The notes under the pieces were generated by a model. The model did not search any database. It was given only the letters and a program-made list of their open reading frames with translations, and was not told where the DNA came from. A stretch of 43,067 nucleotides of DNA from contig CADCHI010000032.1 of NCBI GenBank assembly GCA_902801165.1, positions 1 to 43,067 on the forward strand, read 5' to 3'. How positions within the stretch are numbered: position 1 is the first letter of the stretch; each line of letters starts with the position of its first letter. A program made the position numbers and the translations under genes. Source of the stretch: an uncultured Eubacteriales bacterium. Its GTDB lineage: Bacteria > Bacillota > Clostridia > Christensenellales > Aristaeellaceae. Positions 1,884 through 13,143 of the stretch are shown one piece after another.

Positions 1884-2144
1884 AATTGAGAATTAGGAAT
1901 TAGGAATGAGGAATTAGGAATTAGAAATGGCGGCGCCAGTCCACCGGGTATGTTTGGCGTGGATTTGAAACCCGGGGAAAGGGGCTTATGGAATTCCTGA
2001 TATCAAAGAAAGCAGCAAAGATTTCTTCCGCAACTCCTAGAGTCTGTTTCTAAAATGCCAGAAGCGCATTTTCGGCGTATTTGACTGCATTTCTGCGTTG
2101 ATTTCCCTTGATTTACCGCCAGTAAACCCGCGGTTCCTAATTCC
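1884..2144. repeat. Family C element, copy 1 (AT-rich GAATTAG arms), interrupted by family A
   Basis: The left arm 1884-1927 repeats AATTAGGAATTAGG; the right arm 2134-2144 is the inverse, TTCCTAATTCC. The core segment 2005-2039 matches 16136-16170 in copy 3 at 27 of 35 positions, and the match ends exactly where family A begins. Confidence 0.65.
2038..2133. mobile_element. Family A MITE-like element, copy 1 (right end missing)
   Basis: It begins TAGAGTCTGTTTCTAAAATG as in the copies at 7672 and 10602 and stays near-identical to about 2133, where homology stops; the right inverted repeat is absent. Internal stem TTTAC-CGCCA-GTAAA (2112-2126) differs from the other copies by two compensated base pairs. 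Confidence 0.75.
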
Positions 2145-2145
2145 A

Positions 2146-3018
2146 TCAGACCGTATCCATAAACGTCTTTTCCGTATGGGAGAACAGGATCACGCCGATC
2201 ATGAACACCGCGGCGGTCACGCCCACGGACAGCAGGTTGTAGCCGTAGGAGTAGCGGGGCACGCCCAGGTAGGCGGCACGGAACAGCTCGATGATGGGGG
2301 TGATGGGGTTGAGCATGTACAGCCCCAGCAGGTGGGGGTACTTGTCGGCGATCATCGAGGCGGAGTAGGTCACGGGCGTGGCGTACATCCACAGGTGCAC
2401 GCCGAAGGTGACCAGCATGGCCAGGTCGCGGTACTTGGTGGTCAGCGCGGAGATGATGATGCCGAAGCCCAGGCCCAGCAGCCCCAGCTGGACCAGCATC
2501 AGCGGCGTCAGCAGAATCAGCTGCCAGTTGGGCACCACGCCGCTGTCGGGCTTGGCGGCGTAGATGACCACGAACACGATGAACAGCACGAACTGCACCG
2601 CGAAGTTGATCATCTCCGTCAGCACCGTGGCGAAGGGCATCACCAGCCGCGGGAAGTAGACCTTGCCGAACAGCTTGCTGTTCTTCACGAAGGTGTCGGA
2701 GGTGACCGTCAGGCACTGGGCAAAGAAGTGCCACATGATGTTGCCTGCCATGTAGAACAGGAACTTCGGCACGCCGTCGGTGGGCAGGCCGGCCAGGTTG
2801 CCGAACACCACCGTGAACACCAGCGTGGTCAGAAAGGGCTGGATCACCACCCAGGCGGGGCCGAGGATGGTCTGCTTGTAGAGGATGGTGAAGTTGCGCT
2901 TGACCATCAGCAAAATCAGGTCGCGGTAGCGCACCAGGCCCTTGAAGTCGATGTCAAACCAGCCCTTTCGCGGGCGAATGACCGAGCTCCAGCCTTCGTT
3001 TTTCGAGGTTTTATCCAT
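2146..3018 (-). CDS. Polysaccharide ABC exporter, ABC-2 type permease subunit (Wzm/TagG-like)
   Basis: About 290 residues, a usual length for ABC-2 permeases of O-antigen or teichoic acid exporters. The chosen start at 3018 gives MDKTSKNEGWSSVIRPRKGW and has AAGGAGA seven bases upstream; an in-frame ATG further upstream would add an unlikely leader that runs through the promoter. The cytoplasmic N-terminus contains LVRYRDLILLMVKRNF, followed by TILGPAWVVIQPFLTTLVFT, the family hallmark at the first membrane segment. Several further hydrophobic segments follow to the end. It forms the membrane channel with the ATPase at 583-1842. A promoter (TTGAAA, 17 bases, TACAAT) lies at 3100-3128. Confidence 0.92.
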   Translation of the reverse strand: MDKTSKNEGWSSVIRPRKGWFDIDFKGLVRYRDLILLMVKRNFTILYKQTILGPAWVVIQPFLTTLVFTVVFGNLAGLPTDGVPKFLFYMAGNIMWHFFAQCLTVTSDTFVKNSKLFGKVYFPRLVMPFATVLTEMINFAVQFVLFIVFVVIYAAKPDSGVVPNWQLILLTPLMLVQLGLLGLGFGIIISALTTKYRDLAMLVTFGVHLWMYATPVTYSASMIADKYPHLLGLYMLNPITPIIELFRAAYLGVPRYSYGYNLLSVGVTAAVFMIGVILFSHTEKTFMDTV

Positions 3019-3099
3019 GAACGTCTCCTTGAGGGGGATATTTGGCGCGGACCCGGAGGGGCGGCGCGCCGAAAGGCATGCACACATAAAGCCATTATT

Positions 3100-3128
3100 A
3101 TTGTAGCACGGGATTGTTGCGCTTTCAA
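3100..3128 (-). promoter_or_regulatory. Promoter of the exporter operon
   Basis: On the minus strand TTGAAA (3123-3128) and TACAAT (3100-3105) are separated by 17 bases, a good sigma-70/SigA type promoter about 85 bases before the permease start. Confidence 0.65.
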
Positions 3129-3265
3129 GCAGTTTCGGCAGGAGGCGGCGGGTTTTGCCCGGATGGATGGGATGGATGATGTTTAACATAAAATCAATAT
3201 TCAAAAATGGGATAATGTGTTAATATACGATTATTGTAATATTTAGAAAAAGAGGCGAAATTGAG

Positions 3266-6253
3266 ATGAAAAGATTTGCAATCAAGAAACTGCTGGCGCT
3301 GCTGCTGGCGCTGAGCCTGCTGCTGGGCAGCGTCGCCGCGCTGGCGGAGGACGCGGCCATCCAGGCCACCGAGGACGCCGACGGCAATTACAGCGTGGAT
3401 GTCGGTGCGGTGGACGGCCAGAGCGGGGCGGGCATTTCCTTTGAAGAGAGCAGCCTGACAGTGGATGGTCAGCCGGTCGATCCCCAGCCCGGGGACGCCA
3501 CCAAGTCCATCACGATCGAGGCCAGGGACGTCAAGGAAGAGTCGGACGGAAGGTACGTTCAGGGCGTGGCTGAGAACGCGTATTGGTTCAAGGGCGACAT
3601 TACCGTCAATATTGCGGGCAATGTCGATGTTACGAGCCATCAGACGCTCAGCGACGATGAGAATGACGCGAGCGCATCTGCGCGCGGCATCGAGGTGGAC
3701 ACCGACGGGGGCAAGGTGGACGTCACGGCCGGAGATGTGACGGTTTCCGCCTCGGTCACGGGCAGCGCTTCAAAAACTGAGGATGTTTATGCCAGCGCCG
3801 AAGGCGTCCATGTCACGGGAGATGCCTGCGGCCCGACGACCATTGAGGTTGGAAATGTGACCGTTTCCGCGGAAATCGAGGGCGATTCCGGAGAGGCGTC
3901 GGCCACCGGCATCCAGGGCTATGCGGAAAAGGACAGAAATGCCGAGGGTACGACTGACATCGTCGTCAATGGCGATGTGAAGGCCACTGCCGATGCCAAG
4001 GAGGGCGACGCGTATGCCATAAAGGCCGGCGGCGGAAATGAAGGTGTCGTCGATGTCACCGTGAACGGCAACGTCGTGGCGGAAGGCACCACCTCTGCCG
4101 CGGGCATTGGCGGCTGGGCGGGGGGCAGCACCGCGAATGTCACGGTGAATGGCTCTGTCACCTCCAATTCGGAAAAAGGCAATGCCGGCGGCATTGCGAT
4201 GGATGTGTACGCCAGCACCAGCTGGACGTATGACGAAGAGACGGAGGAATACATCCGGGGAGATCTGGTCAGCGGCGAAAGCAACGTGACCGTAAACGGA
4301 GACGTGGTGGCGGAAAGCGGCAACCGGGCCGGCGGCATTACGAGCGTTTGGTCGGGCGGCAACGCGAACGTGACGGTGAACGGTTCCATCACGGCTACCT
4401 CCAAGGACAATGAAGCCATAGGCATCGACGCGGTTTCGAGCACTTACACCGACTGGATCTACAACGAAGAGACGGATGAGGATGTCGAAGGAGAACACAG
4501 GAACAGCGATGTCAACATCACCGTAAACGGCGATGTGACGGCCGAGGGCAAGGAGATCGCGTCCGGCATCGCCCTCATTGTGGACGAGAATAACACCGCA
4601 AACGTTGCCGTCGTCGGCGATGTGAGCGCGAAGGGCGACGAGGGCTTCGGCCTCCAGCTGACCACGGGGAAGGACGCCCAGGCCAATGTGCTGGTGGACG
4701 GCACGCTGTCTGGCAGCACCGTGGCGATCGCGGCGCAGAACAGCAGCGTCACCGACTACGCGGAGATTGAGGACGAAAAGTACGAGTATGATCCGCTGGC
4801 GGCCAACATCTACGTCTGGAAGGCCGAGGAGAACGCGGACGGCGCCATCGCCGGGGTCTATGACGTGGTGGACGTCGAAAAGACGGTGGAAATCACGATC
4901 ATCAACGACGAGGGCCAGGAGGAGCAGACCACCGAGCCCGAGTGGACCACTGAAAAGACCCTGAACGAGGAGGCCACCGCCAAGCTGGAGGCGGCCATCT
5001 GGTACATCGTCAAGGTGGCCGACAACTGGAAGAGCGCGCTGACTGCCACCGGCACCGGCACCTACCAGGCGGGCGACACTGTCTATGACCTGGCCCACGA
5101 GGGCGAGGACGTGAAGCTCAGCGTCAGCATCAACGAGGACGAAGAGGGCCTGGACGGCGTCTACTACTACGATGGTTCCGACAAGCAGACCACCGCGGAA
5201 TACAAGCAGGACGGCGAGAACTTCATCGTGAAGATGCTGCGCGGCGGCGGCATGCTGCTGGGCCTGAACACCCACAGGCACGAGAAGGCCACCCGCGAGG
5301 AGAACAAGGTGGCGGCCACCTGCACCGCGGCGGGCAGCTATGACCTGGTGACCTACTGCACCGTGTGCGGCAAGGTGTTCAGCACCGAGAAGAAGACCAT
5401 CGCGGCCACCGGCCACACCGCGGGCGAAAAGGTGAAGGAGAACGAGGTCGCCCCGACCTGCACCGCCGTGGGCGGCTACGATGAGGTCGTGTACTGCACG
5501 GTGTGCAAGGCGGAGCTGAGCCGCACCCACGTGACCCTGGAGATGCTGGCGCACACGCCCGGCGAGGCCGTGAAGGAGAATCGCGTGAGCGCGCAGCCCG
5601 GCAAGGCCGGCCACTATGACAAGGTCGTGTATTGCACCGCGTGCGGCGGCGAGCTGAGCCGTGAAACCGTGTCCATCGCCGCGCTGCCCGTGGAGGAAGC
5701 GGAGCCCGCGGCTATGGAGCTGGTCTACGAGCCGGCGGACGAGAACACCGAGATCAACGGCGTGAAGGCGGCGGATCATCAGCCCATGGCGGAGGTCATG
5801 CAGATCGTGGGCGACGCGCTGGACGGCGAGAACGTGACCGTGGAAATCGTGGATTCTGAGAAGCTGATGGACGCGGAGGAAAAGGCGCGCTTTGACAAGC
5901 TGACCGTGAAGGACCGCCTGCTGGTGGTGCTGAGCGCGCTGGGCTTCGGCGACGCGCTGGGCGAGATCTCCGGCGAGATGAGCGACGAGGCGAAGGCGCT
6001 GACGGACGACATCGCCGCCCGCGTGGACAGCCTGAGCGAAGAGGAGAAGCAGGCGCTTCTGGATTCGATCTCCGGCCGCTTCGAGCCGAGGACGATCGCC
6101 ATCGACGGCGTGGAGTACGAGAGCGTGGGCGTCGAAGTGGTGATCGACCGCGACGGCGAAAAGACCTACGAGCGCTACATCTTCTACAAGGACGGCGACG
6201 CCTGGAAGCTGTACGGCATCGAGGTCGGCGAATACAAGGCAGTCGAAGCGTAA
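3266..6253 (+). CDS. Large secreted repeat protein (VTVNGDV-type repeats, Cys-x2-Cys modules)
   Basis: This 995-residue protein has a clear signal peptide (KRFAIKKLLALLLALSLLLG, cleavage near ALAED). Residues about 90-480 repeat a unit of the form (N)VTVNGDV(x)A...A.GI every 35-50 residues, with Gly, Asn and Val at regular positions, suggesting a beta-helix or solenoid. Near 670-810 are three tandem 45-residue modules: CTAAGSYDLVTYCTVCGKVF, CTAVGGYDEVVYCTVCKAEL and, lacking the first Cys, QPGKAGHYDKVVYCTACGGE. Such modules recur in Clostridia surface proteins; their role is unsettled. The C-terminal about 150 residues are acidic with no LPxTG or other anchor that I can see. The ribosome site (AGAGG) is modest. 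A terminator follows at 6274. Function unknown; surface adhesion or structure is a guess from architecture. Confidence 0.8.
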   Translation: MKRFAIKKLLALLLALSLLLGSVAALAEDAAIQATEDADGNYSVDVGAVDGQSGAGISFEESSLTVDGQPVDPQPGDATKSITIEARDVKEESDGRYVQGVAENAYWFKGDITVNIAGNVDVTSHQTLSDDENDASASARGIEVDTDGGKVDVTAGDVTVSASVTGSASKTEDVYASAEGVHVTGDACGPTTIEVGNVTVSAEIEGDSGEASATGIQGYAEKDRNAEGTTDIVVNGDVKATADAKEGDAYAIKAGGGNEGVVDVTVNGNVVAEGTTSAAGIGGWAGGSTANVTVNGSVTSNSEKGNAGGIAMDVYASTSWTYDEETEEYIRGDLVSGESNVTVNGDVVAESGNRAGGITSVWSGGNANVTVNGSITATSKDNEAIGIDAVSSTYTDWIYNEETDEDVEGEHRNSDVNITVNGDVTAEGKEIASGIALIVDENNTANVAVVGDVSAKGDEGFGLQLTTGKDAQANVLVDGTLSGSTVAIAAQNSSVTDYAEIEDEKYEYDPLAANIYVWKAEENADGAIAGVYDVVDVEKTVEITIINDEGQEEQTTEPEWTTEKTLNEEATAKLEAAIWYIVKVADNWKSALTATGTGTYQAGDTVYDLAHEGEDVKLSVSINEDEEGLDGVYYYDGSDKQTTAEYKQDGENFIVKMLRGGGMLLGLNTHRHEKATREENKVAATCTAAGSYDLVTYCTVCGKVFSTEKKTIAATGHTAGEKVKENEVAPTCTAVGGYDEVVYCTVCKAELSRTHVTLEMLAHTPGEAVKENRVSAQPGKAGHYDKVVYCTACGGELSRETVSIAALPVEEAEPAAMELVYEPADENTEINGVKAADHQPMAEVMQIVGDALDGENVTVEIVDSEKLMDAEEKARFDKLTVKDRLLVVLSALGFGDALGEISGEMSDEAKALTDDIAARVDSLSEEEKQALLDSISGRFEPRTIAIDGVEYESVGVEVVIDRDGEKTYERYIFYKDGDAWKLYGIEVGEYKAVEA

Positions 6254-7644: not shown

Positions 7645-7909
7645 AGGAATTAGAAATTAGGAATTAGGAATTAGAGTCTGTTTCTAAAATGCCTGAAGCG
7701 CATTTTCGGCGTATTAGACTGCATTTCTGCGTTGATTTCCCTTGACTTAGCGCCACTAAGCCTGCGGACTTGCATTTAGAAACACACTCTAAGGCTGGCG
7801 GGCGCTTATACCGCAGGGGCGGCCAATGGCTGCCCACCTGCATTATTTTCGCTTTATGATGACACCGGCTTACTTAAATTCTCAATTCCCCATTCTCAAT
7901 TCTCAATTC
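7645..7909. repeat. Family C element, copy 2, carrying a family A insertion
   Basis: Left arm GGAATTAGAAATTAGGAATT (and on to 7673), right arm ATTCTCAATTCCCCATTCTC (and on to 7909) in inverse orientation. Family A starts at the last TA of the left arm. Confidence 0.6.
7672..7791. mobile_element. Family A MITE-like element, copy 2 (complete, 120 bp)
   Basis: The left end TAGAGTCTGTTTCTAAAATG and the inverse of the right end TAGAGTGTGTTTCTAAATGC form near-perfect terminal inverted repeats bounded by TA. Internal stems: AAAATGC/GCATTTT and CTTAG-CGCCA-CTAAG (7746-7760). It has no coding capacity. Confidence 0.8.
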
Positions 7910-7965: not shown

Positions 7966-8967
7966 ATGAAGGTCCTGGTCACCGGCGGCGCCGGTTACAT
8001 CGGCAGCCACACCTGCGTGGAGCTGCTGAACGCGGGCCATGAGCTCGTCATCGTGGACAACTTTGTCAATTCCAAGCCGGAAGCGCTGGACGCCATTCGG
8101 ACCATCACCGGCAAGGACTTCGCCTTCTACGAGGTGGACATCCGGGACCGCGAGGCCCTGGGAAAGCCCTTCACCGAGCACGACATCGACGCCGTGATCC
8201 ACTTCGCGGGGCTGAAGGCGGTGGGCGAATCGGTGCAGAAGCCCCTGGAGTACTACGACAACAACCTGTACGGCTTCATCGTGCTGGCCGAGGTGATGCG
8301 CGCCCATGGCGTGAAGCAGCTCGTGTTCTCCTCCTCCGCCACGGTGTATGGCATGAACAACCCCGTGCCCTTCCGGGAGGAGATGCCCACCTCCGCCACC
8401 AATCCCTACGGCTACACCAAGGTGATGATCGAGCAGATGCTGCGGGACATCGCCGCCTCCGACCCCGAGTGGCGCGTCTGCCTGCTGCGCTACTTCAATC
8501 CCATCGGAGCCCACGAGAGCGGCCTGATCGGCGAGGACCCCAACGGCATCCCCAACAACCTGCTGCCCTACGTGGCCCAGGTGGCCGCTGGGAAGCTGAA
8601 GCAGCTGACGGTGTTCGGCGACGACTACGATACTCCCGACGGCACCGGCGTGCGGGACTACATCCACGTGGTGGACCTGGCGCTGGGCCACCTGGCGGCG
8701 CTGAACTACGTGAAGGACCACGCCGGGGCTGTGGCCGTGAACCTGGGCACCGGCAAGGGCACCAGCGTACTGGAGATCGTCCACGCCTTCGAGAAGGCCT
8801 GCGGGCATCCCATCGCCTATCGCATCGCCGCGCGGCGCGCGGGCGACATCGCGGAGTGCTACGCCAACACGGACCGGGCCGCCGAGCTGCTGGGCTGGCA
8901 CGCCACGCGGAATATCGACGACATGTGCCGCGACGGCTGGCGGTTCGCGAAGAATCGCTACCAATAA
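7966..8967 (+). CDS. galE: UDP-glucose 4-epimerase GalE
   Basis: This 333-residue NAD-dependent enzyme interconverts UDP-glucose and UDP-galactose for galactose use and glycan precursor supply. The Rossmann glycine motif VTGGAGYIGSHTCVELL begins at residue 4. The sugar-nucleotide epimerase core includes VIHFAGLKAVGESVQKPLEYY, SSSATVYG and the catalytic YGYTK motif. RYFNPIGAHESGLIGEDPNG and the C-terminal ARRAGDIAECYA are GalE signatures. AAGGAGG precedes the ATG by eight bases. It is the only gene between two non-coding gaps, so apparently monocistronic; an imperfect hairpin without a U tract follows at 8979-9012. Confidence 0.97.
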   Translation: MKVLVTGGAGYIGSHTCVELLNAGHELVIVDNFVNSKPEALDAIRTITGKDFAFYEVDIRDREALGKPFTEHDIDAVIHFAGLKAVGESVQKPLEYYDNNLYGFIVLAEVMRAHGVKQLVFSSSATVYGMNNPVPFREEMPTSATNPYGYTKVMIEQMLRDIAASDPEWRVCLLRYFNPIGAHESGLIGEDPNGIPNNLLPYVAQVAAGKLKQLTVFGDDYDTPDGTGVRDYIHVVDLALGHLAALNYVKDHAGAVAVNLGTGKGTSVLEIVHAFEKACGHPIAYRIAARRAGDIAECYANTDRAAELLGWHATRNIDDMCRDGWRFAKNRYQ

Positions 8968-9833: not shown

Positions 9834-9926
9834 GCGCCGATTGGAATTGTACAAGATTGGGAAAACGACGTGTTTTCCGGGTCGGCGGGTTCTGGAGGAA
9901 TACGGCGACAATCACAGGAGGAAGCG

Positions 9927-10604
9927 ATGGCGGAGAGAATTCTGATCGTCGAGGACGAGGAGAAGCTGGCGCGGTTCGTGGAGCTGGAGCTGCTCCACGA
10001 GGGCTATGAGGTGGACAAGGCCTTCGACGGGCGGAACGGCCTGGAGAAGCTGGAGGGCGGCGGCTACGACCTGGCGCTGCTGGACATCATGCTGCCCGGG
10101 CTGAACGGCTTGGAGGTGTTGCGCCGCGCCCGCCGCACGGTGGACACGCCGGTGATCATGCTCACCGCCCGGGATTCCGTGATGGACAAGGTGGCCGGAC
10201 TGGACATGGGCGCGGAGGACTACATGACCAAGCCCTTCGAGATCGAGGAGCTGCTGGCCCGCATCCGGGCGGCCCTGCGCAAGTCCCAGCGCCGGGCGCC
10301 GGAAACCCAGGTGCTCGCTGCCGGGGCGCTGAGCATGGACGTGGGCCGGCACACCGTCAGCTATGATGGCCACCCCATCGAGCTGACCCAGCGGGAGTTC
10401 GCCCTGCTCCAGGCGCTGCTGGAGAACAAGGGCATCGTCCTCAGCCGCAGCACCCTGATGGAGCGGGTGTGGGGGTACGACTACCTCGGCGAGACCAACA
10501 TCGTGGACGTGTATGTGCGCTACCTGCGCGGCAAGATCGACGACGCCTTCGGCGTGCGACTGGTGCAGACCGTGCGCGGGGTGGGGTATGTGATCAGGGA
10601 TTAG
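9927..10604 (+). CDS. OmpR/PhoB-family response regulator
   Basis: 225 residues. The start at 9927 follows AGGAGGAAGCG; longer in-frame starts run into element B. The receiver domain has the acidic pair in IVEDEEKLARF, phospho-acceptor Asp53 in LALLDIMLPGLNGLEV, Thr80 in MLTARD and Lys102 in YMTKPF. The C-terminal winged helix (about 128-225) shows LTQREFALLQALLENKGIVL, then SRSTLMERVWGYDY and TVRGVGYVIRD. It should be phosphorylated by the kinase at 10860. The stop codon TAG (10602-10604) is the first three bases of a family A element, so the last codons of the original gene may have been replaced, though the end GVGYVIRD is where the family normally ends. Confidence 0.94.
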   Translation: MAERILIVEDEEKLARFVELELLHEGYEVDKAFDGRNGLEKLEGGGYDLALLDIMLPGLNGLEVLRRARRTVDTPVIMLTARDSVMDKVAGLDMGAEDYMTKPFEIEELLARIRAALRKSQRRAPETQVLAAGALSMDVGRHTVSYDGHPIELTQREFALLQALLENKGIVLSRSTLMERVWGYDYLGETNIVDVYVRYLRGKIDDAFGVRLVQTVRGVGYVIRD

Positions 10605-10749
10605 AGTCTGTTTCTAAAATGCCTGAAGCGCATTTTCGGCGTATTAGACTGCATTTCTGCGTTGATTTCCCTTGACTTAGCCCCACTAAGCCTGCATGCA
10701 GCCAAATCCGCTCGAAACTGCATCTCCCTGCATTTAGAAACACACTCTA
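10602..10749. mobile_element. Family A MITE-like element, copy 3 (complete, 148 bp)
   Basis: Same inverted ends as copy 2, bounded by TA. It carries a 30-odd-base internal addition (after 10690) relative to copy 2. The stem CTTAG-CCCCA-CTAAG at 10676-10690 is kept while the loop changed. It separates response regulator and kinase by about 255 bases and provides the regulator's stop codon. Confidence 0.8.
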
Positions 10750-10859
10750 GGCAACAGGCAGAAGGGAACAGGCAATAGTCAGAATGCCGGAGATCAGGGA
10801 ATAGGCGTCAATCAGGGTATGCGAACAGAGGAAAGCTGGCAGGGAAGGGGAGTGTGGCC

Positions 10860-12188
10860 ATGAACGCGAATCGCAGGTTTAATTCCATTGCCCGGCGCAT
10901 CCAGCACTCCTGGCAGTGGAAGCGGCTCCGGCAGATGATCTTCCTGAACCTGCTGGCGTTTTTGGCGTGCCTCGCGGCCTACCTCTACGCCCGGGAGACC
11001 GCCGTCACGGGGACCTTCGTCGGCAAGAGCCTGCCACGGTTCCTGACCCTGGACCCCGACCTCCGGGGAACGGAGGCCCTCCTCAGCCTGACCTATGGCT
11101 TCACCTGGCAGGGGGAGAGGCACCTGGTGCCGCTGGCGGACTTCCTTGGGCTGGCCTGGCGGTTCGGGCGCCCCTTGCTGATAGGCGAGGGCGTGCTGTG
11201 GGTGCTGGGCTTTTTCGGCAGCGCCCGGGGCGCGCGGCGGCTGTTGAAGCCGCTGGATCGCATGGCCGCGACGGCGCAGCGGCTGAGTGACGAGGCGAGC
11301 GCCCGCCGGGCCGCGGAGCAGAGGCCGGACCGCCAGGGCGTGGACGAGGAGAAGTTCCACAGCCTGGAGCACGCCATCGAGCAGATCGATATCGGCGACC
11401 GGCTGTCCACCGGCGACAAGGACCTGCAGGGCCTGGAGGACGCCATCAACGACCTGCTGGCCCGGATGCACGCCGCCTATCAGCAGCAGGCCCAGTTCGT
11501 CTCCGACGCCTCCCACGAGCTGCGCACGCCCATCGCGGTCATCCAGGGCTACGTGCGGATGCTGGACCGCTGGGGCAAGGACGACGAGAAGGTGCTGGAG
11601 GAGTCCATCGCCGCCATCAAGACCGAGACCGACCACATGAAGGTGCTGGTGGAGCAGCTGCTGTTCCTGGCCCGGGGCGACAGCGGCCGCCAGCAGCTGA
11701 ACCCGGAGCCCATGGACCTGTCGGACCTGGCCCGGGAGGTGCTGGGGGAGTACCGCATGATCGACGCTGCCCACGAATGGCGTGAGGGCAGGCTGGAGGC
11801 CGCGCCGGTGTCCGGCGATCCGGCCCTGTTGAAGCAGGCGGTGCGCGTCCTGGTGGACAACGCGGTGCGCTACACCCCCGAGGGCGGCAGCATCCGGCTC
11901 AGCGCCGCCGCCCGGGATGGCGAGGCCTGGCTGGAGGTGCAGGACAGCGGCATCGGCATCGAGGGGCAGGACGTGCCCCGGATTTTCGACCGCTTCTTCC
12001 GGGCCGACCCCGCCCGCGCTCGCAGCAGCGGCGGCACCGGGCTGGGGCTCTCCATTGCCCAGTGGATCGTGGAGCGCCACGGAGGCCACTTCGAGGTGAC
12101 CAGCCGCGCCGGCATCGGCACCCGCATACAGGTGCGCCTGCCGGAGGCGCAGGCCGGCGAAGGCGCGGAGGCCACTGAGGCCTCGTGA
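10860..12188 (+). CDS. Sensor histidine kinase of the adjacent response regulator
   Basis: About 442 residues. ATG at 10860 is preferred over the in-frame GTG six bases earlier because of its spacing from AAGGGGAG. A first membrane segment lies at about 28-45 (MIFLNLLAFLACLAAYLYA), a short extracytoplasmic loop follows and a second segment lies near 105-120. A HAMP-like region (LLKPLDRMAATAQRLSDEAS) and a linker precede the HisKA domain with phospho-acceptor His219 in SDASHELRTPIAVIQGY. The HATPase domain has the N box LVDNAVRYTPEGG, G1 VQDSGIGI, F box IFDRFFRAD and G2 GGTGLGLSIAQWIVERHGG. The ligand is unknown; a very short sensor loop suggests sensing in or near the membrane. Confidence 0.93.
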   Translation: MNANRRFNSIARRIQHSWQWKRLRQMIFLNLLAFLACLAAYLYARETAVTGTFVGKSLPRFLTLDPDLRGTEALLSLTYGFTWQGERHLVPLADFLGLAWRFGRPLLIGEGVLWVLGFFGSARGARRLLKPLDRMAATAQRLSDEASARRAAEQRPDRQGVDEEKFHSLEHAIEQIDIGDRLSTGDKDLQGLEDAINDLLARMHAAYQQQAQFVSDASHELRTPIAVIQGYVRMLDRWGKDDEKVLEESIAAIKTETDHMKVLVEQLLFLARGDSGRQQLNPEPMDLSDLAREVLGEYRMIDAAHEWREGRLEAAPVSGDPALLKQAVRVLVDNAVRYTPEGGSIRLSAAARDGEAWLEVQDSGIGIEGQDVPRIFDRFFRADPARARSSGGTGLGLSIAQWIVERHGGHFEVTSRAGIGTRIQVRLPEAQAGEGAEATEAS

Positions 12189-12243: not shown

Positions 12244-12265
12244 TATATCAGATCGCAAGATCTGC

Positions 12266-12376
12266 GTCTTCGGGGCAGGGTGAAATTCCCGACCGGCGGT
12301 AAAGTCCGCGAGCCGCTTCGGCGGCATGAACCGGTGTGATTCCGGTACCGACTGTAGAGTCAGGATGGAAGAAGAC
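12266..12376 (+). promoter_or_regulatory. FMN riboswitch (RFN element)
   Basis: The closing stem GTCTTC (12266-12271) pairs with GAAGAC (12371-12376). Between them lie the conserved blocks GGGGCAGGGTGAAATTCCCG, ACCGGCGGTAAAGTCCGCGA, GCATGAACCGGTGTGATTCC and GGTACCGACTGTAGAGTC. It senses FMN and controls the riboflavin transporter downstream. Confidence 0.97.
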
Positions 12377-12406
12377 AACGCGCGCAAGCGCCTGTGCCGA
12401 AATGTC

Positions 12407-12441
12407 CGCGCCCCGGGACTGATCCCGCGGGCGCGCTTTTT
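12407..12441 (+). terminator. Expression-platform terminator of the FMN riboswitch
   Basis: GCGCCCCGGGA, loop CTGA, TCCCGCGGGCGC then TTTTT, placed between aptamer and the ribU ribosome site. Termination when FMN is bound is the usual mode and fits this layout. Confidence 0.8.
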
Positions 12442-12483
12442 ATGTCCGGCGGACGCGACGCCGGGAAAGAGGAGGTATTTGGT

Positions 12484-13143
12484 ATGTCTGAGTCGAGAAT
12501 CAACAGCAAGCGATTGACCCTGATGGCCATGCTGGCCGCCATGGCCTATGTGGCCATGCTGGTGACCCGGCCCCTGCCGGCGGTGGCGGGCTTTCTGAGC
12601 TACGACCTGAAGGACGTGATCGTCGCCATGAGCGGGTTCCTGCTGGGCCCAGTGGCCGCCGCGCTGATCACGCTGGTGGTCTCGCTGATCGAAATGGTGA
12701 CGGTGAGCAGCACCGGCCCCATCGGCCTGCTGATGAACGTGCTGTCCACGCTGGCCTTCGCGCTGCCCGCCGCCCTGCTCTACCGCAAGAGCCGCACCCT
12801 GCGCAGCGCGGCTGTCGGCCTGGCGCTGGGCGTCGCGATCATGACGGCGGTGATGCTGGCCTGGAACTACATCATCACGCCCATGTACATGGCCGTGCCC
12901 CGCGCCGTGGTGGCGGGCATGCTGCTGCCCACCTTCCTGCCCTTCAACCTGGTCAAGGGCGGCCTGAACGCCGGCATCACCATGCTGCTGTACAAGCCCC
13001 TATCCGCGGCGCTGAAGCGTGCGGGCCTGCTGGCCTTCCACGGCAGCGGCGCGCCCCGGAAGTTCAACCTGACGTCCACGCTGATCTCCGCCTTCGTGGT
13101 GGTGACCTGTGTGATACTGTTCGTGCTGATGACCCGGGGCTGA
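12484..13143 (+). CDS. ribU: Riboflavin ECF transporter S component RibU
   Basis: 219 residues, with ATG at 12484 seven bases after AGGAGG; in-frame upstream starts fall inside the terminator. After a short basic N-terminus (SRINSKRLTLMAMLAAMAYV) come five to six membrane segments. PLPAVAGFLSYDLKDVIVAM and SGFLLGPVAAALITLVVSLI match RibU S components, in which the loop after the first helix lines the riboflavin site. The LLPFNLVKGGLNAGITMLLY-type helix (here PTFLPFNLVKGGLNAG) is also conserved. It binds riboflavin and docks on a shared EcfA-EcfA'-EcfT energising module encoded elsewhere. The FMN riboswitch upstream strongly supports the substrate. Confidence 0.96.
   Translation: MSESRINSKRLTLMAMLAAMAYVAMLVTRPLPAVAGFLSYDLKDVIVAMSGFLLGPVAAALITLVVSLIEMVTVSSTGPIGLLMNVLSTLAFALPAALLYRKSRTLRSAAVGLALGVAIMTAVMLAWNYIITPMYMAVPRAVVAGMLLPTFLPFNLVKGGLNAGITMLLYKPLSAALKRAGLLAFHGSGAPRKFNLTSTLISAFVVVTCVILFVLMTRG

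Follow-up and report, generated by a model that had tools for sequence, protein, structure and literature searches.

The window, by which we mean the whole stretch of 43,067 nucleotides analysed here, carries three copies of a short repeat close to genes identified by family searches. An FMN riboswitch that precedes the gene of an ECF transporter S component was the only Rfam match in the window, and no tRNA was found in it. For a 995-residue open frame at 3266-6250, neither Pfam nor NCBIfam gave a match at E 0.001. The genes near the repeats and the parts of each copy, with the terminal inverted repeats placed by end-sequence search, are as follows.

583-1842 and 2146-3204, minus strand: ABC transporter ATPase and permease (family search)
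2038-2133, plus strand: copy 1, the left 96 bases of the element with the right 68 bases missing; TTTAC/GTAAA-tip subfamily
2038-2054, plus strand: left terminal inverted repeat of copy 1 (TAGAGTCTGTTTCTAAA)
2112-2126, plus strand: tip hairpin of copy 1, TTTAC-CGCCA-GTAAA
7000-7605: RecR (family search)
7672-7791, plus strand: copy 2, both ends present, right arm 44 bases shorter than in the intact form
7672-7688, plus strand: left terminal inverted repeat of copy 2
7746-7760, plus strand: tip hairpin of copy 2, CTTAG-CGCCA-CTAAG
7775-7791, minus strand: right terminal inverted repeat of copy 2 (TAGAGTGTGTTTCTAAA on the minus strand)
7966-8967: GalE (family search)
9870-10604: response regulator (family search), ending at the TAG of copy 3
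10602-10604, plus strand: left-end TAG of the element, serving as stop codon of the response-regulator gene
10602-10749, plus strand: copy 3, both ends present, right arm 16 bases shorter than in the intact form
10602-10618, plus strand: left terminal inverted repeat of copy 3
10676-10690, plus strand: tip hairpin of copy 3, CTTAG-CCCCA-CTAAG
10733-10749, minus strand: right terminal inverted repeat of copy 3
10854-12188: histidine kinase (family search)
12262-12380: FMN riboswitch (Rfam)
12394-13143: ECF transporter subunit (family search)

A preliminary description of this DNA had placed the three copies at 2038-2133, 7672-7791 and 10602-10749, which we confirmed, and had given all of them inverted ends bounded by TA, which is correct for copies 2 and 3 but not for copy 1, where the element breaks off after position 96 and its right end is lacking. 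All three are defective, copies 2 and 3 by internal deletion, and the fold of copy 2 differs from that of the intact element in that the long inner stem is absent. The tip stems were described accurately: in copy 1 both bases of two pairs are changed, and in copy 3 the difference is confined to the loop. Over the 96 bases that they share, copies 1 and 2 differ at seven positions, namely the four stem positions and positions 23, 45 and 92, so that within the window the paired change represents a single lineage difference; its independent recurrence was found only in the wider family. At the corresponding places of the closest relative seen (genome G016) none of the three copies was present: homology to the flank of copy 1 resumes at 2135, a short run of N lies about 35 bases further on from the place of copy 2, and the site of copy 3 is empty, the response-regulator gene ending at the same TAG without the element.

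The intact element is 164 bp long, running from TAGAGTSTGTTTCTAAA at its start to TTTAGAAACASACTCTA at its end, and is composed of the flanking TA, inverted ends of 17 bases that are nearly identical, and a hairpin-forming interior. This length was shared by 69 of the 130 elements with both ends that were collected from fetched loci (40 of them from the source genome), a set that includes at least one evident false pair (L121) and eight elements without an assigned orientation. With copy 2 as the query, 53 matching stretches were found in its own genome (3.55 Mb, 98 contigs), copy 2 itself included. The end sequence TAGAGTNTGTTTCTAAA occurred with up to two mismatches at 92+67 = 159 sites of that genome, against 1+0 for a reversed-pattern control, and TAGAGTSTGTTTCTAAA with up to one mismatch at 146 sites, against 0 for the control. 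The element was present in 25 of the 28 genomes of the genus, a group of gut bacteria (source genome counted), and in 1 of 8 other sampled genomes of the same family, and was absent from 24 other genomes of the order; a further sample of the order, made up of 150 other genomes from outside this genus, likewise contained no end sites. At least 55 of the matches listed (80 of 114) belong to "uncultured Clostridiales" MAGs of the RUG series, which from their names we take to be rumen genomes, and six single-end matches to unrelated bacteria were also among the matches listed. No Rfam family matched the element above its gathering score, and among the papers listed by literature searches none dealt with this element or with MITEs of these bacteria.

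The insertion sites followed a rule, with a YTAR target in 105 of 120 elements; among the 98 elements with TA at both ends TTAG was the commonest form (44), and CTAA accounted for 17. For the empty-site comparison, the joined flanks of the 40 source-genome elements were aligned with 30 loci of G016, which is 92-97% identical to the source genome in the blocks compared; these loci had been located with 14 of the elements. In the 12 elements that aligned across the join, G016 had a single TA at only five (the second element of L007, L008, L017, L022 and L036), another dinucleotide at six (TG at L004, CC at L006, TG at the first element of L007, CA at L021, TT at L035 and TT at L175) and a deletion at one (L176). 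Long alignments make the orthology firm for L004, L008, L021 and L022; L017, L036, L035 and further matches of L022 touch other repeats. Intergenic tracts of GGAATTAGGAATTAG (also GGGATTAG and AACAGGCAACAGG) supply TTAG targets at 1888-1928 and 7646-7672 of the window and in the flanks of other copies.

Several copies lie directly behind genes, as copy 3 does. The gene finder was a simple codon-usage script that missed some genes (L004 was called wrongly) and is blind to genes interrupted by the element, and for 19 of the 122 oriented elements the flank was too short for it. Flanks of 330 bp or more were available on the left for 107 elements, of which 17 had a coding frame ending exactly at the element's TAG and one more had one in another frame; the corresponding figures for 107 right flanks were three and one. 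In a second count the element supplied 16 stop codons at the left and three at the right (P 0.004), and between tandem genes the two orientations stood at 40 vs 20 (P 0.013), figures to be read with the incomplete independence of copies in related genomes in mind. The left-end stop sites include TTAG (6), TTAA (4) and CTAA (4). When the element enters a stop codon at its TA, a TAG remains and the protein is kept; under the YTAR rule this happens quite often, and the element comes to sit at gene ends with the protein unbroken. The left-end excess and the orientation skew may reflect target preference, selection at the RNA level, or both.

Full-length elements encoding a transposase between the same ends, which the preliminary description had thought worth seeking, were found in relatives. 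The first (L112) is an IS of 928 bp with TAGAGTGTGTTTCTAAA at both ends, and the second (L052, in genome G019 of the genus) is an IS of 1016 bp with near-identical ends at a TTAA site; both are bounded by TA. In L112 the frames 2529-2888 and 2866-3339 overlap, and L051 has a single frame of 269 aa, so the two-frame layout is not universal. The proteins of L112 and L051 carry PF13340 and PF01609 and score above the cut-off of NCBIfam NF033580 (IS5 family transposase). PF13340 was found in 3 of the 28 genomes of the genus and the L112 protein query matched in four, the fourth match being weak and containing two stops. Neither PF13340 nor the IS protein query found a complete IS copy in the source genome. 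Two of its contigs (C12 and C40) stop within the same IS, 97 bases in from its 3' end, with 92% identity to L052 over those 97 bases and 89% to L051, and one frame reads KLASRFLAFVHLASIRILLA; since the two contig ends lie beside different flanks, the source genome probably has at least two IS copies that were lost in assembly. The IS and the MITE have only about the terminal 21 bases in common and share no interior 13-mer.

In the portions of PMC3281130 that deal with the IS427 group (IS1248 and ISPpa2 of Paracoccus), the target duplication is mostly of 2 bp, with one case of 4, the inverted ends measure 13-21 bp, members have two overlapping frames with a frameshift motif, and those tabulated are 832-865 bp long. 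The elements described here share with that group the TA duplication and ends of about 17-21 bp, and L112 has the two overlapping frames and an IS5-family transposase, but at 928-1016 bp the partner IS is longer, and the MITE, unlike IS427 members, is without coding capacity and has an interior with no 13-mer from the IS found. By these features the partner, with its IS5-family transposase, is most likely IS427-like. Being short, non-coding, terminally inverted and dispersed in many copies, with TA duplications, empty sites and full-length autonomous partners with the same ends (L112 and L052), the repeats form a MITE family, of a kind already known, whose partner is of IS5 type. The matching ends, the transposase family and the TA duplication are direct observations, and they suggest that this IS5-type enzyme would move the MITE.

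Hairpin-forming MITEs are common, but to our knowledge it has seldom been tested whether their fold is selected or is a by-product of the inverted repeats; here the recurrent compensatory change seen along 74 intact-length copies from many genomes, with pairing that persists on internal and decays on terminal branches, makes the question directly testable. In its full 164-bp form the element makes up a single imperfect palindrome, which folds along its whole length and has the CTTAG/CTAAG stem as its tip. For the intact copy L012 the folding energy is -56.7 kcal/mol (z -7.0) for the plus strand and -77.5 kcal/mol (z -9.5) for the minus strand. The second stem, AAAATGC/GCATTTT, which had been called constant, is not a stem of the family, as each half pairs across the element: in 26 of the 74 copies position 20 is C with its supposed partner 30 still C, and position 20 varies instead with position 146 on the far arm.

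Covariation was assessed in the 74 of 130 elements that were 161-166 bases long, oriented and free of N, an earlier alignment of 84 copies being gappy; elements with large indels or strong divergence were dropped (L023, L072, L081, L087, L103, L182, L214, L228 and L251). Across 56 pairs, which were named on the consensus of the same 74 sequences, a choice that by itself favours the drawn structure over slid registers, 93.4% of cells were paired, against 25.7-47.2% in registers slid by one to three columns. Changes on both sides were seen in 20 of the 56 pairs (12.1 in shuffles, 8-10 in slid registers) and in 182 cells (55.8 in shuffles, 10-38 in slid registers), the covariation score of the named pairs was 0.127, and none of 500 shuffles matched the observed pairing, double-changed pairs or cells, or covariation score. 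The outer pairs are part of the terminal repeats, which a transposase would conserve regardless.

When all column pairs were scored against a tree-based null of 40 simulated sets, as the preliminary description had suggested in outline, the tip pair 79/85 was the only pair with E <0.05, and its score exceeded that of every pair in the 40 null sets. Ranks 2 to 6 all fell in the hairpin register without reaching significance (20/146, 47/117, 75/89, 44/120 and 45/119; E 0.65 to 2.45), and the seventh-ranked pair, 138/147, lay outside it. Parsimony gave six G-C/C-G switches at 79/85 and three changes from C-G to T-A at 75/89. The preliminary description would have been undone by a lack of further copies, of which there are many, or by unpaired changes in the tip stem, which do occur but rarely (75/89 is unpaired in 3 of 74 copies and 79/85 in 1 of 74). 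Several of the other named pairs frequently fail to pair (47/117 does so in 31 of the 74 copies, 68/97 in 30 and 20/146 in 21). A tally of tips by pattern, which caught 86 of the 130 elements and was escaped by 44, gave CTTAG/CTAAG, TTTAC/GTAAA, TTTGC/GCAAA and CTTGC/GCAAG among other forms, together with the G-T intermediates CTTGC/GTAAG and TTTGC/GTAAA and a few broken tips. The covarying hairpin is real and spans most of the element; what it does we infer.

Pair states were reconstructed by parsimony on a tree of the copies, which for interspersed repeats is approximate and has some deep terminal branches, and the same reconstruction was applied to 30 independent-sites simulations as the null. 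Paired double changes numbered 37 against 2.0 under the null, with 19 on internal branches (null 0.6) and 18 on terminal branches (null 1.4), the latter partly because single deep branches count as terminal. With 20 double-changed pairs and this many double switches, selection on a folded nucleic acid is better supported than the preliminary description had claimed. Single pair-breaking changes numbered 28 on internal branches (null 48.7) and 68 on terminal branches (null 62.0), and the ratio of breaking to restoring changes was 30:46 internally and 75:24 terminally (P 1.3e-6), a result that runs in the same direction as the bias of parsimony towards consensus ancestors. We read this as a constraint to pair in the lineages that multiply, and decay in the resident copies; since pairing persists on internal branches and terminal ones lose it at close to the null rate, the fold probably matters for the spreading of the element.

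The mismatches also bear on the strand that folds. Changes out of Watson-Crick pairs, read on the plus strand, gave A-C 59 times and G-T 27 times, and the mismatched cells of the 56 pairs comprised 104 G-T and 155 A-C, or 36 and 155 without the near-constant G38/T127 (111 and 160 on a slightly different pair set). As an A-C mismatch of the plus strand corresponds to G-T when the minus strand is read, the excess leans towards a fold of the minus strand, with few pairs carrying the effect, 47/117, 68/97 and 20/146 together holding 77 of the 155 A-C cells. This lean fits minus-strand RNA and minus-strand single-stranded DNA alike.

We consider it quite probable that the repeat is a TA-flanked hairpin MITE, most likely moved in trans by an IS5-family, IS427-like transposase, and that its fold is kept most likely for propagation. 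The transposase of an IS with the same ends would most likely cut the MITE and move it. The entire MITE folds into one long hairpin, and compensatory change keeps the pairing in multiplying lineages, individual resident copies losing it freely. The fold could act as DNA, placing side by side for the transposase two ends that are separated by only about 130 bp, or it might act as RNA, allowing the host to tolerate new insertions at gene ends.

It is possible, if on balance unlikely, that the hairpin of the same MITE is selected as RNA, being transcribed in the 3' untranslated region behind genes where it would protect, terminate or be processed. The stop codons supplied to neighbouring genes by 17 left ends and only 3 right ends and the 40 vs 20 orientation with tandem genes are in keeping with such a role, as are the strong RNA folds of both strands (z -7.0 and -9.5), and the portions of PMC10969869 and PMC2229807 on Correia/NEMIS of Neisseria and ERIC of Yersinia provide precedents. 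Yet the excess of A-C over G-T changes (59 vs 27) and the better fold favour the minus strand when it is the plus strand that runs with genes more often, and part of the orientation skew may be explained by the preference for TTAG over CTAA targets (44 vs 17 of 98). Pair loss at about the null rate on terminal branches, and the loss of part of an arm in all three window copies, also argue against this reading.

Doubtful, in our estimate, is the idea that the hairpin is a working part of transposition, in which a cruciform or a single-stranded DNA fold would set the ends side by side for the IS5-type DDE transposase. The element is about as long as the persistence length of DNA and would be hard to loop as a double helix, and on this proposed reading it would therefore have been selected to extrude or fold, the minus strand being the one that folds better. 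IS5-type DDE transposases act, on the usual view, on double-stranded ends, so that the idea, if true, would mean a structure-assisted route for that class.

That the paired changes are mutational, with template switching at the quasi-palindrome copying a change from one arm to the other, is improbable as a general account. Neighbouring pairs do change together in some copies, like a copied tract (in L155, positions 65-68 with 97-100), and arm-to-arm copying may contribute to block changes of that kind. It should, however, erase internal mismatches, several of which are near fixation (T71/C94 in 74 of 74 copies, T61/C104 in 72, T32/C133 in 66 and C39/C126 in 66); moreover, individual tip pairs switched repeatedly (79/85 six times and 75/89 three times), and pair-breaking changes are depleted on internal branches only.

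A MITE of an IS630/Tc1-type transposon, which the preliminary description had suggested and of which TA duplication is typical, is very improbable, and this partner was rejected because the MITE ends are carried by IS5-family elements and were present at 0 of the 13 DDE_3 (IS630-type) loci, which lie in 12 of the 28 genus genomes, with no DDE_3 gene found in the source genome. A structured RNA unrelated to mobility, its other suggestion, is contradicted and ruled out by the TA duplications and the empty sites in the close relative G016.

Elements of similar build are known elsewhere. Those of the Correia/NEMIS family in Neisseria have ends that differ from those of the MITE. As treated in parts of PMC2229807 and PMC10969869, they are about 100-200 bp long with TA ends, a long hairpin and many intergenic copies, and RNase III processing and promoters have been reported for them. 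RUP of Streptococcus pneumoniae, in the portion of PMC2229807 devoted to it, is a short, non-autonomous, TA-targeting element with ends in common with an IS of the same species; that IS is IS630-Spn1, a precedent for an IS630/Tc1 assignment, whereas the IS here is of IS5 type. The stem-loop repeats of Borrelia plasmids are also dispersed, lie in some cases just behind genes and show compensatory stem changes, but they measure 34-122 nt, and PMC2674063 goes no further than to suggest a relation to MITEs.

Other repeats accompany the family. Several copies (L177 at G000:C23:68650-69250, L178 and L179; L009 and L013) have further palindrome-rich repeats nested at their tip or close to it, and one kind, with N runs inside, breaks the tip in three source-genome copies. 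A repeat family starting GGAAAACGGAACGTTTTCCGGGTCGGCG is abundant in G016 and directly adjoins some copies (flanks of L022 and L036). More divergent relatives with the same ends and hairpin plan were seen at L174, L183 and L123; among them are TTTGC/GCAAA tips and one copy, from a Christensenella MAG (UBA7703), with a palindromic tip and a different interior.
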